Below, piece by piece: positions 10,285 to 15,096 of a DNA stretch of 28,285 bases (position 1 is the stretch's first letter; every line of letters begins with the position of its first letter). The stretch comes from a virus. Below the pieces are notes generated by a model, which was given only the letters and a program-made list of their open reading frames with translations, made no database searches and was not told where the DNA came from. The DNA is taken from positions 1 to 28,285 of the IMG/VR virus record IMGVR_UViG_3300033064_001296, one strand, 5' to 3'. The position numbers were made by a program, and so were the translations under genes.

Positions 10285-11532
10285 ATGCCATTAAATTCTG
10301 ACCTTGAGAATACCCTAGAGCCCATAGTGAGAGTTCTTTCGGCCTCACTCACGACTACTGTTGAAGGGGACCTGGTACAAGCCTATATTCAAGGTGACCG
10401 AGAGTTAGTTACCTGGGGAATCACCAAAGGCGGCTTCCCGATTGCCTATGAAGGACCACCAATGGAAAAGGCAATAAGTTTCGCTAAAAAACACGGCGCC
10501 AAATTAGTGACTCAAGTAGATGATGAGACTAAGCGCCGCCTAGCTCAAACAGTAGGTGATGCTATAAAGAACAAGCGAGGAATCCCCGGCCTAGCCAGAG
10601 ACATTCGGGGGACCTTCGATAACATGGGCAAATACCGTTCCCAGTTGATTGCCCGGACAGAAACCGCCAGCGCACTCTCTCAGGCATCACTTGATAGAAT
10701 GGAAGCGATGGGAGTAGACGGTAAGGAATGGGTGACTGTTGGTGATGACAGGGTAAGCCCGGAGTGCCAGGGAAACGAGGCAGAGGGAATTATACCAGTC
10801 GATCAGCAATTCAGTAGTGGAGTTATGGCACCGCCTCAGCATCCAGCCTGTAGGTGCGCTGTAGCGCCTGGGATATTGCCTGTTACCAAAGCTCCGCCAA
10901 AAGCACCTAGTGCCGAACCGGAAATTAGTGGGCGATCGGCAAATCAACATTCTCCTAAAGATGTGTTTGGTAAAAATGCCGATGAACTAAGTGTTTATGG
11001 AGACCTCAAGGATAGTCCTGAATATGCTAAGATGGGAAACCAACTATCAAGGCACATATCAAAGACAACTGGTAATAAAGTTTCCAGTGAGGAAGCCGCT
11101 AAGATGGCGCGTAATGTTCACCAATATCAAGGGCGTCAAGATATCTATACTAAAGTACGCTCCGGCAAGTTACCTGATGTCTCCAAAAACATTGAGAACT
11201 ACCTAAAATATGGTGAAAAGTACGATGGTAAGATATACAGGGGGATGACTTTTAGTGATGATGTATTTGTGAATAAATTAAAAGTCGGAAGTAACATGGA
11301 TATGAAAGGGCTTAGTTCTTGGACAACCGATAAAAAATACGCAGGAAATTTTGCAAGTCGGTTAAAGAATAAAGTTACAGTAGAATTAGAAAAAGGCAAC
11401 GGTGTTAGTATAACTCATTTATCTCGTAGTCCATTAGAAAAAGAGGTGCTTCTCTCAGGGACGAGGAACCTTAAAATAACATCAGTAACACAGAAGGGGG
11501 ATAGTTTCTATGTTAAAGTTAAAGAAATCTAA
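10285..11532 (+). CDS. MuF-type head protein fused to a putative ADP-ribosyltransferase
   Basis: 415 residues. Residues 1-195 are a MuF-like minor head domain: KYRSQLIARTETASALSQAS (116-135), TVGDDRVSPECQGNEAEG (151-168) and MAPPQHPACRCAVAP (181-195). A Pro/Ala linker leads to residues about 215-415, which look like an ART toxin fold: IYRG (R319), LSSWTTDKKYAGNF (343-356; STS-like motif) and LEKEVLLSG (E385-x-E387), the R-S-E signature order. MuF proteins are packed in the capsid, so the ART may be injected with DNA and modify a host protein. The ART part is visibly more AT-rich than the head domain. AAAGGA precedes the ATG. Confidence 0.88.
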   Translation: MPLNSDLENTLEPIVRVLSASLTTTVEGDLVQAYIQGDRELVTWGITKGGFPIAYEGPPMEKAISFAKKHGAKLVTQVDDETKRRLAQTVGDAIKNKRGIPGLARDIRGTFDNMGKYRSQLIARTETASALSQASLDRMEAMGVDGKEWVTVGDDRVSPECQGNEAEGIIPVDQQFSSGVMAPPQHPACRCAVAPGILPVTKAPPKAPSAEPEISGRSANQHSPKDVFGKNADELSVYGDLKDSPEYAKMGNQLSRHISKTTGNKVSSEEAAKMARNVHQYQGRQDIYTKVRSGKLPDVSKNIENYLKYGEKYDGKIYRGMTFSDDVFVNKLKVGSNMDMKGLSSWTTDKKYAGNFASRLKNKVTVELEKGNGVSITHLSRSPLEKEVLLSGTRNLKITSVTQKGDSFYVKVKEI

Positions 11533-11855: not shown

Positions 11856-12025
11856 GTGAAAGGCTTGACATTATGGATACAAAGGTGCTAGAATTGCATC
11901 GTTATGTTCAGGCTATTCCGTGGAAAGAATTCATTGACCACGGATGGGTCAAAATTAAGATTACAGATGGCAAGCCCACATTGACAATCCTTGAGAGAAG
12001 TGATAGAGTGAATAGTGGCCGGTAG
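11852..12025 (+). CDS. Hypothetical small protein with GTG start
   Basis: 57 codons from a GTG in a GTGA overlap with the zinc-ribbon gene, ending at TAG 12023-12025. The product (MDTKVLELHRYVQAIPWKEF, then IDHGWVKIKITDGKPTLTIL) looks like a real folded small protein: helix, then strands. Its last ten bases overlap the first helix strand of the structured RNA region at 12016. SD is poor, so coupling to the upstream gene is likely. No family recognised. Confidence 0.6.
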   Translation: MSERLDIMDTKVLELHRYVQAIPWKEFIDHGWVKIKITDGKPTLTILERSDRVNSGR

Positions 12026-12220
12026 TATAATAAGGGTTTAATACGGGCGTAGTGCCAAAAGCAGGAATCCCCGTCCTGCCCGGCCAACTTAATAATAGAA
12101 TAGCTTGCTCGGTGGCCAGAGCTGTTTCAGCGGTTGCCACTGGGACAAGGCCAGCCACCCGTAAAGTGGGCCAAGGGATATAGAGAATGAGTAGTGCGTT
12201 ACCCCTACTACTGGCTGGCA
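12016..12220 (+). ncRNA. Structured non-coding region with two tRNA-acceptor-like helices
   Basis: After the stop at 12025 there is no credible gene until 12368. Two long-range helices bracket tRNA-sized segments: TGGCCGG (12016-12022) with CCGGCCA (12080-12086), 71 bases, and GCCAGCCA (12150-12157) with TGGCTGGC (12212-12219), 70 bases. The first also has a D-arm-like hairpin, GTAT (12025-12028) with ATAC (12041-12044), and CAGGA with TCCTG just before the closing strand. Neither yields a normal anticodon arm and T loop. Near-identical spacers (TTAATAATAGAATA and TTTAACAATAGAATA) follow the first segment and precede the tRNA. TATAAT at 12026-12031 could start a transcript. Confidence 0.4.
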
Positions 12221-12236
12221 TTTAACAATAGAATAT

Positions 12237-12311
12237 CGCGGGTAGGACAAACAGTAAGTCGCTGGCCTCATACGCCAGAGAAACAGAGTGCAACTCTCTG
12301 ACCCGCTACCA
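12237..12311 (+). tRNA. tRNA with CAT anticodon (Met or Ile2), unusual elbow
   Basis: 75 bases fold as a tRNA: acceptor CGCGGGT (12237-12243) with ACCCGCT (12301-12307), six pairs plus a C-T mismatch at 1-72; D arm GAC/GTC; anticodon stem CTGGC/GCCAG with loop CTCATAC, anticodon CAT; variable loop AGAAA; T stem CAGAG/CTCTG with loop TGCAACT; discriminator A; encoded CCA at 12309-12311. The 1-72 mismatch recalls initiator tRNA, but the anticodon stem lacks the three G:C pairs. Position 8 is A, the D loop lacks GG and T-loop position 55 is G, so the elbow is abnormal. Possibly functional, possibly decaying. Confidence 0.75.
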
Positions 12312-12322
12312 AAACGGATGAG

Positions 12323-12354
12323 AACCGTAGGCTTTTATAGTCTGCGGTTTTTTT
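12323..12354 (+). terminator. Rho-independent terminator after the tRNA
   Basis: AACCGTAG (12323-12330) pairs with CTGCGGTT (12342-12349) through eight pairs including one G-T, with an 11-base loop, and is followed by a run of seven T overlapping the stem end (12348-12354). This is a textbook intrinsic terminator placed 12 bases after the tRNA CCA end and 14 bases before the HNH gene. Confidence 0.85.
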
Positions 12355-12367
12355 GTTTATAGATATT

Positions 12368-12943
12368 ATGCCATATCTAGGTGAGTTTAAGTTAGCAAGA
12401 GAGATTGGCCACATTGCTCCTGGTGGTGGTGATAGACACGTGTGGAGTGCCTGTGAAGAGTGCGGAAAGGAAAGATGGGTACGATATAGAAAAGGACAGC
12501 CTGTTTCACTGGTCTGTCTTCAGTGTGCTAACCAGATAAAGCGTAAGAATATGCTAGGACTTCATGGTGAAAGGGCACGACATTGGAAAGGTGGTTGGCA
12601 AAAAGACAATTCAGGATATGTCCTAATCACACTTACTCCAGATAACTTTTTCTATTCGATGACAAATTATAAAGGCCAGATTAGAGAACACCGCCTTGTG
12701 CTTGCAAAGCATTTGAAGCGTTGCCTTTTATCTTGGGAAATTGTGCATCATAGGAACGGGATAAAAGACGATAATCGTCTTGGTAATTTAGAGCTTATTA
12801 AGGGATTAGGACGTCACAACACACAGGTAGAAAGGCAAATTATTATGCTTCAAAAGAAAGTAGAGGTTTTGCAGAACCGAGTTACTTTGCTTGAAGCTGA
12901 ATTAGTATTGGAGGCAAGAGAATCATGCCGTATAGAACAATAG
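12368..12943 (+). CDS. HNH homing-type endonuclease
   Basis: 191 residues from the ATG at 12368. An N-terminal zinc motif CEECGKERWV with a second pair CLQC (near residues 30-54) precedes the HNH core: IREHRLVLAKHLKR (first His), WEIVHHRNGIKDDNR (His-His and Asn region) and LGNLELI. A C-terminal coiled coil (MLQKKVEVLQNRVTLLEAEL) probably contacts DNA or dimerises. Free-standing HNH enzymes of this type are mobile elements in phage genomes and cut alleles lacking them. The TTG start at 12353 lies inside the terminator T-tract and is rejected. No SD is visible. It overlaps the next gene by 19 bases. Confidence 0.88.
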   Translation: MPYLGEFKLAREIGHIAPGGGDRHVWSACEECGKERWVRYRKGQPVSLVCLQCANQIKRKNMLGLHGERARHWKGGWQKDNSGYVLITLTPDNFFYSMTNYKGQIREHRLVLAKHLKRCLLSWEIVHHRNGIKDDNRLGNLELIKGLGRHNTQVERQIIMLQKKVEVLQNRVTLLEAELVLEARESCRIEQ

Positions 12944-15096
12944 GGGAATTGCCAGATAGCGTTAAAAACCTGCCGAAGGCAGGGCAAGAAATGTATATGA
13001 AAGTTTTTAATGCTGCCTTCAAACAATACGACAACGAGGGCAAAGCTCATGCTACTGCCTGGGCGGCTGTCAAGAATAAGTACAAGAAAAACGACTCTGG
13101 CCAATGGGTAACCAAGGAGGCAAATATGAATCTAAGCGATCAGCAAAAACGCAACTTGCTCCAAACAGCCCTAGTCTCTGAATATGGGCTAAAGGTAGAA
13201 TCCCCTATTCCCAAGAATGTATCCATTGAAGAGGTATTCGATAGCGAGATTGTGTATGCCATTGATGGCCAGCTTTACCAATCCAGTTATGAGCTGGGCG
13301 AGGGCGGACCTACATTCGGTGAGCCCAAAAAGGTATTGAGTACCAAAGTATTCAAGGCAATGGAATCGCTTTCTATGGAGAACAGGCGCTCTTTGCTTGA
13401 TGTTGCGCTTCATAATCGTCTTGGTCTAACAAAAGATGAATACCTATTTATTGAAGATATGACTGAAACCGAGGTATTTTATAACTACAACCGCCAAGCC
13501 TATAAAGCCGCATATTCTATTACTGGAGATAACGTAATCACAATAGGTGATTCCAAAAAGGTTACCCGTCAAGTTGTTTACAAGGCAATGGAAGCTCTCC
13601 GAGAAAAATACTCTGAGATCATCCAGGAAGCGGGCAGACGTAATGCCTCTCTGGACTCAAAACGGATCAAGAAGATAGTTGAGCTATGCCAGGAGCTACT
13701 TTCGTCTGACGAATTCAATGATGAGAAAACCGTAGAGGCTATAAATGAAGCCGATAAAACCCTAGTTTGGCTGAAAGAGCAGGCGGTTTCTAAGGTTGAA
13801 GACGGGGTTAACTATCCTGCCTCTGCCTTTGCCTATGTGCCTGATGCTGCGGAAGCCTCGGGCTGGAAACTTCGAATGTGGGAAGACGCTGAGAAAAAGG
13901 TTACTAAGAATCAACTTAGACTTGCCTCTGCCTCTCTCAGTAAAGGTGGGCTTTCTGGTATTCGCACCGCTATACCCGCTGCTGATTTGGCTGCTGTCAA
14001 GCGCAAGATAAGAGCTGAATATCGCAAATTAGGTGTTGAAGAGGCTGATATACCTGCGTGGATTAAGGAAGTTGAAACCCGGGAGCTATTGCAGAGCTTT
14101 ACTCCGCTTACCGAGGCGAAGTTTGATAAAGGCCGCGCTACTGTAATCGTTATCAAGCCTGGCTTTAACGCCACTGAGGACCGGTACTACCCCGCAGAAA
14201 TGTTAAAGCGTGATTATAAGATATTCGAAGGTCAGAAAATGTATGCTGACCATCCTACTGAGGAAGAAGATCAAGCCCGCCCCGAACGGTCGATAAAGGA
14301 TTGGGTTGCTACATTATCCGAAGTCACTTGTGATGAGTCCGGTGTAGTTTCTGGTATTGCCGAGATTCTAGAGCCATGGTTGATGACAAAGTTGGCTTCC
14401 CTGCGAGATAAGCAGATGCTTTCAGAAATGGGCATCTCTATCAATGCAGTTGGGAGCGCTTCTAAGGACACCATCGATGGCAAGGAAACCCTAGTAATCG
14501 AGAAACTCGTGGCTGCCAGGTCGGTAGATTTTGTAACCGAGCCCGGAGCCGGCGGGATTGTCACATTCTATGAATCGGATAGAGGTCACGATATTGACTT
14601 AGTTGAACTAGCAACCTTAAGGGAGAAGCGCCCTGACTTAATCAAAGCTGTTGAGGCTAAAGTTCGGGCAGAAATCACCAAGGAGGTAAAGAAGGCTATG
14701 GAAAACGAAGAGAAAATCACAGAGCTAGAAGGTACGGTCGCAACACTGACCACAGAGCGCGATGCCCTCAAGGAAGCCGCAGAGAAGGCAGAAAAGGACA
14801 AAGCAACAGCCGAAGCACAAGCCACCATTAAGGAGGCTGTAGACAAGGCCGAGCTACCCGATGCTGCCAAAGAGCGACTAATTGAGAGGTACAAGGATGC
14901 CGAAACCGCTGACGGTATTGCAGAGGCGATACAGTCCGAGGTCGATTATATCGGCAAACTCGCCGAGGCCGGCAAGGTCAAAGGGATGGGTGGAAGTAAA
15001 CCCGATCCCGCAAAAGACAACGAAGCCCTGAAAGAGAGCTTCGAGAAACTCGGCCTATCAGAAGAAGAGGCCAAAACCGCCGCTGAAGGGCGCTAA
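12925..15096 (+). CDS. ChaB-domain, repeat, capsid protease and scaffold fusion
   Basis: 723 residues in at least four parts. Residues 1-62 are a ChaB-like domain (PYRTIGELPDSVKNLPKAGQ). Residues about 78-147 and 157-225 are two diverged copies of one module (each ending VFKAMESL / VYKAMEAL). Residues 295-372 (NYPASAFAYVPD to AAVKRKIRAEYRKLG) are a module I recall next to phage proteases. Residues 388-550 are the maturation protease: MYADHP (H443), MGISINAVG (S505) and RSVDFVTEP (D535), a His-Ser-Asp set as in T4 gp21-like proteases. Residues 560-723 are a charged, coiled-coil scaffold. It would shape the procapsid and then cleave it. Unusually long for the family. Confidence 0.88.
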   Translation: MPYRTIGELPDSVKNLPKAGQEMYMKVFNAAFKQYDNEGKAHATAWAAVKNKYKKNDSGQWVTKEANMNLSDQQKRNLLQTALVSEYGLKVESPIPKNVSIEEVFDSEIVYAIDGQLYQSSYELGEGGPTFGEPKKVLSTKVFKAMESLSMENRRSLLDVALHNRLGLTKDEYLFIEDMTETEVFYNYNRQAYKAAYSITGDNVITIGDSKKVTRQVVYKAMEALREKYSEIIQEAGRRNASLDSKRIKKIVELCQELLSSDEFNDEKTVEAINEADKTLVWLKEQAVSKVEDGVNYPASAFAYVPDAAEASGWKLRMWEDAEKKVTKNQLRLASASLSKGGLSGIRTAIPAADLAAVKRKIRAEYRKLGVEEADIPAWIKEVETRELLQSFTPLTEAKFDKGRATVIVIKPGFNATEDRYYPAEMLKRDYKIFEGQKMYADHPTEEEDQARPERSIKDWVATLSEVTCDESGVVSGIAEILEPWLMTKLASLRDKQMLSEMGISINAVGSASKDTIDGKETLVIEKLVAARSVDFVTEPGAGGIVTFYESDRGHDIDLVELATLREKRPDLIKAVEAKVRAEITKEVKKAMENEEKITELEGTVATLTTERDALKEAAEKAEKDKATAEAQATIKEAVDKAELPDAAKERLIERYKDAETADGIAEAIQSEVDYIGKLAEAGKVKGMGGSKPDPAKDNEALKESFEKLGLSEEEAKTAAEGR

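Follow-up and report, generated by a model that had tools for sequence, protein, structure and literature searches.

A stretch of phage DNA encodes, among its head genes, a small structured RNA that probably belongs to a known orphan family as a new and divergent subfamily. Judging from its helices and loops, this element, RNA1, is probably a distant relative of skipping-rope RNA (RF02924) that is missed by Rfam. We think it likely that RNA1 is a phage small non-coding RNA (about 70 nt) and a divergent skipping-rope relative that would head a short transcript and act in trans by its shape.

The window, i.e., the whole stretch of DNA analyzed here, comprises 28,285 nt (28.3 kb; positions 1-28,285 of virus record IMGVR_UViG_3300033064_001296) and encodes a terminase, a portal, a Mu-F-type minor head protein, a ChaB/protease fusion, a capsid and a tape measure protein. 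Between the end of the minor head gene (11532) and the start of the ChaB/protease gene (12925) lie two small open reading frames, an array of RNA elements and a gene for an HNH endonuclease. In the array, RNA1 and a second tRNA-sized element, RNA3, both stand upstream of a tRNA-Met, with near-identical spacers between them and one common terminator after all of them. The features are the following:

10285..11532, + strand: Mu-F-type minor head protein with an ADP-ribosyltransferase-like C-terminus, the upstream neighbor of the array
11981..12009, + strand: predicted sigma-70-like promoter, TTGACA-17-TAGAGT with a TG extension; transcription expected to begin near 12016
12016..12086, + strand: RNA1, 71 nt; closing helix TGGCCGG...CCGGCCA; covariation with L103, L087 and L015; 83 bits with the covariance model R2 (see below); pseudoknot
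12089..12102, + strand: spacer TTAATAATAGAATA
12104..12149, + strand: long hairpin (RNA2); folding z of -3.55, reached by 0/200 shuffles
12150..12219, + strand: RNA3, 70 nt; GCCAGCCA...TGGCTGGC, 8 Watson-Crick closing pairs; abuts the hairpin RNA2
12222..12235, + strand: spacer TTAACAATAGAATA; L017, a locus free of the RNAs, has the identical sequence
12237..12311, + strand: tRNA-Met (CAT) with encoded CCA; Rfam RF00005, 45.1 bits over 12237-12308; relative in L214
12320..12352 or 12360, + strand: intrinsic terminator; position kept in relatives, 48 related terminators
12925..15096, + strand: protein with a ChaB domain and resembling head-maturation proteases, the downstream neighbor of the array

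The HNH endonuclease gene (12353-12943) fills the space from the terminator to the ChaB/protease gene. L017 lacks this endonuclease gene, and there the terminator is followed at once by the ChaB/protease gene. A preliminary description of the window had reported two segments of 71 and 70 bases, each with 7-8 perfect closing pairs, and near-identical spacers before the tRNA. We recovered both segments (12016-12086 and 12150-12219) and, letter for letter, both spacers (12089-12102 and 12222-12235), and we add to them the hairpin at 12104-12149, the terminator, and the promoter at 11981-12009.

Structure and covariation of RNA1

RNA1 has homologues in three further phages, all from its own group (L103, L087 and L015); the last two were found by using L103 as BLAST query. 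In L087 and L015 their neighbors are other genes of the portal/minor-head/protease region. The alignment of the four copies shows, at the level of sequence comparison, a fold made of a closing helix (7 pairs), a D-arm-like hairpin (4 pairs), a short middle hairpin of 3-4 pairs (4 in the consensus), a T-arm-like hairpin (5 pairs) and a pairing between the first and the last loops (4 pairs). When the pseudoknot is included, 87.4% of the cells of the alignment pair and 9 pairs have changed on both sides; this pairing was reached by 0/500 shuffles, and slid controls had at most 2 pairs changed on both sides. Hence, the covariation analysis that had been proposed for the closing helices favors RNA1, and the suggestion of a new structured phage RNA is borne out by the compensatory changes among its homologues. 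The sample consists of four independent phage copies, from which R2 was also built; with only four sequences, covariation is strong for the varying helices and silent on the invariant ones. In L015, the inner closing helix is unpaired and there is a 10-pair outer helix instead.

The phage pseudoknot has a GGG/CCC core and one covarying pair (C-G, U-A or U-G), the core being invariant in the phage set, so that covariation concerns one of its four pairs only. The specificity of the loop-loop pairing was assessed across 13 sequences, from phages and Anaerolineae: 0/2000 loop permutations reached the observed pairing, and 1/2000 did when one phage sequence was kept with the distinct others. The score used was the best pairing in any register, which for the window and L103 picked GGGUU/AAUCC over the register of the covariation test.

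The D-arm-like hairpin and the 5-pair stem at the place of the T arm, both noted in the preliminary description, are seen in the sequence and in the four-phage alignment. Its statement that RNA1 lacks a proper anticodon arm and T loop also holds: the middle hairpin has 3-4 pairs and a loop of 4-5 nt, where a tRNA anticodon arm has 5 pairs and a 7-nt loop, and the sequence at the place of the T loop is ANTCCCCRN across the phage copies.

Could such shapes arise by chance? The + strand of the window has exactly two places, RNA1 and RNA3, where a perfect 7-pair closing helix goes together with a perfect 5-pair T-arm-like stem, against 0 or 1 in each of 12 dinucleotide shuffles. Folding energy is weak evidence alone (z of about -1.5 for both RNAs, with 12/200 and 18/200 shuffles as good, respectively), and a looser shape descriptor matched 649 such shapes across 181 loci and the window. 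Hence, shape alone is insufficient to settle the status of RNA1 and RNA3. That RNA1 is a real structured RNA is settled by the covariation in its relatives; RNA3 comes without such support. Phage records had no blastn match to the region, scanning viral contigs for the patterns that mark RNA1 gave no additional copies above chance, and none of the loci inspected after these scans (L164, L166, L167, L169 and L170) has an RNA1.

Probable kinship with skipping-rope RNA

To our knowledge, skipping-rope RNA is an orphan family with many copies and no known function. Its founding paper is reportedly that of Weinberg et al. 2017. A pseudoknot between the loops of the first and last hairpins has been reported for RF02924 (PMC7779021), and a survey of phage non-coding RNAs includes skipping-rope motifs (PMC8501573). 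The preliminary description did not mention this family, the nearest known one to RNA1.

The covariance model R2, built from the four phage copies of RNA1, gave them 76-90 bits and gave 13 to the next best match in related phages. Over 923 whole genomes of three classes, it had one outstanding match, in Anaerolineae (G590, 39.4 bits, E 2.6e-8), and this match is a bona fide RF02924 locus by Rfam, with the same ends. In the reverse direction, the RF02924 model matched the L087 copy end to end and in the same helix register, with a weak 19.4 bits (E 1.4e-4 in its record). This is the best score among the RNA1 copies, none of which reaches the gathering cut-off of 36.7 bits. The RF02924 model gave no match to the RNA1 of the window at E<=10, and the Rfam search of the window called neither RNA1 nor RNA3. 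Other matches of R2 were discarded on reading the translated frame by eye: those at 21-22 bits in Dehalococcoidia lie in the coding sequence of an acyl-CoA dehydrogenase, and one at 29.7 bits in Anaerolineae lies in that of a pyruvate phosphate dikinase. R2 scores below 30 bits are therefore meaningless alone. By the Rfam threshold RNA1 falls outside RF02924; by its architecture it is skipping-rope-like, and the two are probably kin.

The likeness covers the order and sizes of the four helices (closing helix, hairpin, hairpin, T-arm-like hairpin), the 5-pair T-arm-like stem with its 9-nt loop abutting the closing helix, and the pseudoknot joining the loops of the first and last hairpins. It extends to the predicted free-standing promoter, the occurrence in phages and, in one prophage, the slot. 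The linker before the last hairpin, AGAUG in RF02924, resembles it to varying degrees in the phage copies: it is AGATG in L087 and L015, AAATG in L103 and AAAAG in the window. The pseudoknots of the Anaerolineae skipping-rope RNAs are CUGCC/GGCAG, CCGCC/GGCGG, CCGUG/CACGG or GGGG/CCCC. In contrast, the GAGG that follows the closing helix in RF02924 is GTAG or GTCG in all four phage copies of RNA1, whose D-stem is shorter and A+U-rich and whose middle hairpin has only 3-4 pairs. This comparison would indicate that helix order and the loop-loop pseudoknot are the essential features and that GAGG is dispensable.

Among the canonical copies in Anaerolineae, the one that scores best (L239/L249, 57 bits) belongs to a prophage, which has the order TerL, portal, Mu-F, skipping-rope, protease, capsid, tail sheath. 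Its slot, after the Mu-F minor head gene and before the head protease, is that of RNA1 in the window and in L103. The presence of the RNA1 subfamily in virion-assembly operons, in a slot that one prophage uses for a canonical copy, would tie the orphan skipping-rope RNA to the phage life cycle. Two further Anaerolineae copies are found in L246 and L247, the latter adjoining a Cas_NE0113 CRISPR-accessory gene. In L241, L243 and L244, the Anaerolineae skipping-rope RNAs are directly followed by a T-rich run, so their closing helix and last hairpin may be their own terminator.

We also compared RNA1 with the int-alpA RNA (RF02996), another phage-linked small RNA, to which it has a local match at the AAAA linker and T-arm-like hairpin (15.7 bits). 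In the int-alpA RNAs that we looked at, one hairpin is missing by comparison, and pairing is possible between the last loop and a 3' tail. We dropped this kinship, since R2 finds 0/18 members and RNA1 does not have the two-hairpin, loop-tail architecture.

A possible exchange slot beside the head genes

More than 100 related contigs were collected by scanning with the proteins encoded next to the array. Many of them have an AU-rich spacer (TTAACAATAGAATA, TTAACAATTAAATA or AACTGAATAG) and one type of terminator just upstream of the ChaB gene. What lies between spacer and terminator varies: nothing in L017 and L041, a tRNA-Asp with spacer repeats on both sides in L023, a tRNA-Met in L100, a hairpin in L015 and L018, and an RNA1-like RNA in L103. 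At this locus tRNAs, structured RNAs and hairpins thus replace one another between constant spacers, and the slot between minor head and protease genes may be a site of small-RNA cargo exchange in this phage group. The idea of an RNA array is supported by the different small RNAs that relatives have between these spacers. The preliminary description had named ordinary tRNAs at the corresponding place as evidence against its reading. Some relatives do have one (Asp in L023, Met in L100), so this counts in part, but such a tRNA is a substitute cargo rather than the ancestor of RNA1. The spacers are rare within the window, and stronger support for them comes from the same spacer at the same position in relatives without the RNAs (L017 and L041). 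We rejected the idea that the spacer is a general phage promoter, since within the window it is confined to the array. In L075, the cargo is a different, longer and possibly structured element (2623-2800). L142 was discarded as a relative: its terminator-like pattern arose by chance, its open reading frames suggest an unrelated phage, and it has no match to the ChaB protein.

Neither the hairpin RNA2 (12104-12149) nor RNA3 has a homologue in the related loci; RNA3 matched neither R2 with filters off nor Rfam, including RF02924, and no covariation was found for it. By eye, the loop GUAA of its first hairpin could pair with its last loop, UUAC, and GAGAAUG before the last hairpin recalls the anatomy of skipping-rope RNA, which makes a second skipping-rope-like RNA a lead. 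The tRNA-Met (12237-12311) is initiator-like, with a C-U mismatch at the first pair. Its D loop AAACAGTAA has an A at the expected G18, and its T loop TGCAACT has G55; since a close relative in L214 (1727-1800) shows GG and TTCAATT, as is usual, a joint change of positions 18 and 55 seems to have taken place. The phage group repeatedly has a tRNA-Met(CAT) in the minor-head/protease region (L171, L191, L204, L210, L214, L032 and L081), and several of these genes encode CCA and resemble initiators in that their first pair is mismatched.

Transcript, role and alternative readings

The promoter predicted in the window has 10/12 hexamer matches and a TG before the second hexamer, which is equalled at 0.1% of random positions. 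The RNA1 of L015 also has a promoter placed for a start at the closing helix (TGGTATAAT), and most of the 10 Anaerolineae skipping-rope loci have a sigma-70-like promoter set to start there. No good promoter was found before the L103 and L087 copies of RNA1, and none was found for RNA3. We infer that RNA1 starts at its own sigma-70-like promoter. RNA1, the hairpin, RNA3 and the tRNA-Met would then form a short non-coding transcript, headed by RNA1 and ended by a single terminator, and the AU-rich spacers may be the sites where its pieces are cut apart. Our best guess for the role of RNA1 is a trans-acting RNA recognized by its shape, which might bind a host or phage protein rather than act by base-pairing or decoding. 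Action by shape is suggested by where the conserved bases of RNA1 are found, namely in helices, in junctions and in loops that pair with each other, with no conserved anticodon or free seed.

The main rival, which we regard as unlikely, is that RNA1 acts in cis on its operon, whether as tRNA punctuation (a tRNA-like shape that marks a cut), as a protector of the 3' end or as a riboswitch of the downstream gene. A ribosome-binding site and a gene do come within 20-30 nt after RNA1 in L087 and L015, and in L103 a terminator comes directly after it. Yet the following genes differ among loci, a terminator separates RNA1 from the next gene in the window and in L103, and in the window and L015 the promoter starts at RNA1 itself. 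Much less probable still is an origin of RNA1 and RNA3 from a tRNA array, as tRNAs that have decayed or are of an unusual kind. RNA1 does resemble tRNA (RF00005) in size, in the cloverleaf-like order of its arms and in the bases of its D-arm, which keeps the equivalents of U8, A14, GG and A21; a tRNA-Met adjoins, and true tRNAs occupy the same slot in relatives. It differs in having no anticodon arm, no TTCRANY loop and a loop-loop contact of 3-4 Watson-Crick pairs, and, unlike the tRNAs of the group, it has no encoded CCA. ARAGORN found no tRNA in the array region (the tRNA-Met was missed as well), and the Rfam tRNA model matched neither RNA1 nor RNA3. All four phages keep the pseudoknot, the CCCC loop and the short hairpin with its GNRA loop, and these covary; the odd middle hairpin and the CCCC loop are thus selected features rather than decay, which goes against the earlier suggestion of degenerate tRNAs. 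Type III toxin-antitoxin antitoxins are RNA pseudoknots (PMC12373285), and RNA1 is a compact pseudoknotted phage RNA. That RNA1-type RNAs are such antitoxins is nevertheless extremely improbable, since they have no tandem repeats of about 36 nt and no toxin-like neighbor, PADLOC having returned nothing relevant on the neighboring genes.

A wider grouping than the trans-acting skipping-rope relative that we favor is quite unlikely: a superfamily of anticodon-less, tRNA-shaped RNAs of phages and satellites, including skipping-rope RNA, the RNA1 subfamily and perhaps RNA3 and a unit of the Streptococcus satellite phage Javan99. Such RNAs would have their own promoters, occupy exchangeable slots beside head or packaging genes and mimic tRNA on a host protein of translation, tRNA maturation or defense. 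The Javan99 unit (L278, 2356-2428) is tRNA-like, with a standard T arm (TTCGAAT) and only a short middle hairpin. It is preceded by TGGTATAAT and adjoins a skipping-rope-like RNA; a promoter placed as in the skipping-rope loci is visible by eye in Javan99. Its sequence, which is partly under a "hypothetical protein" annotation, recurs in many Streptococcus satellites and also just upstream of the terminase genes of full phages (among them A25, Javan23 and Javan318).
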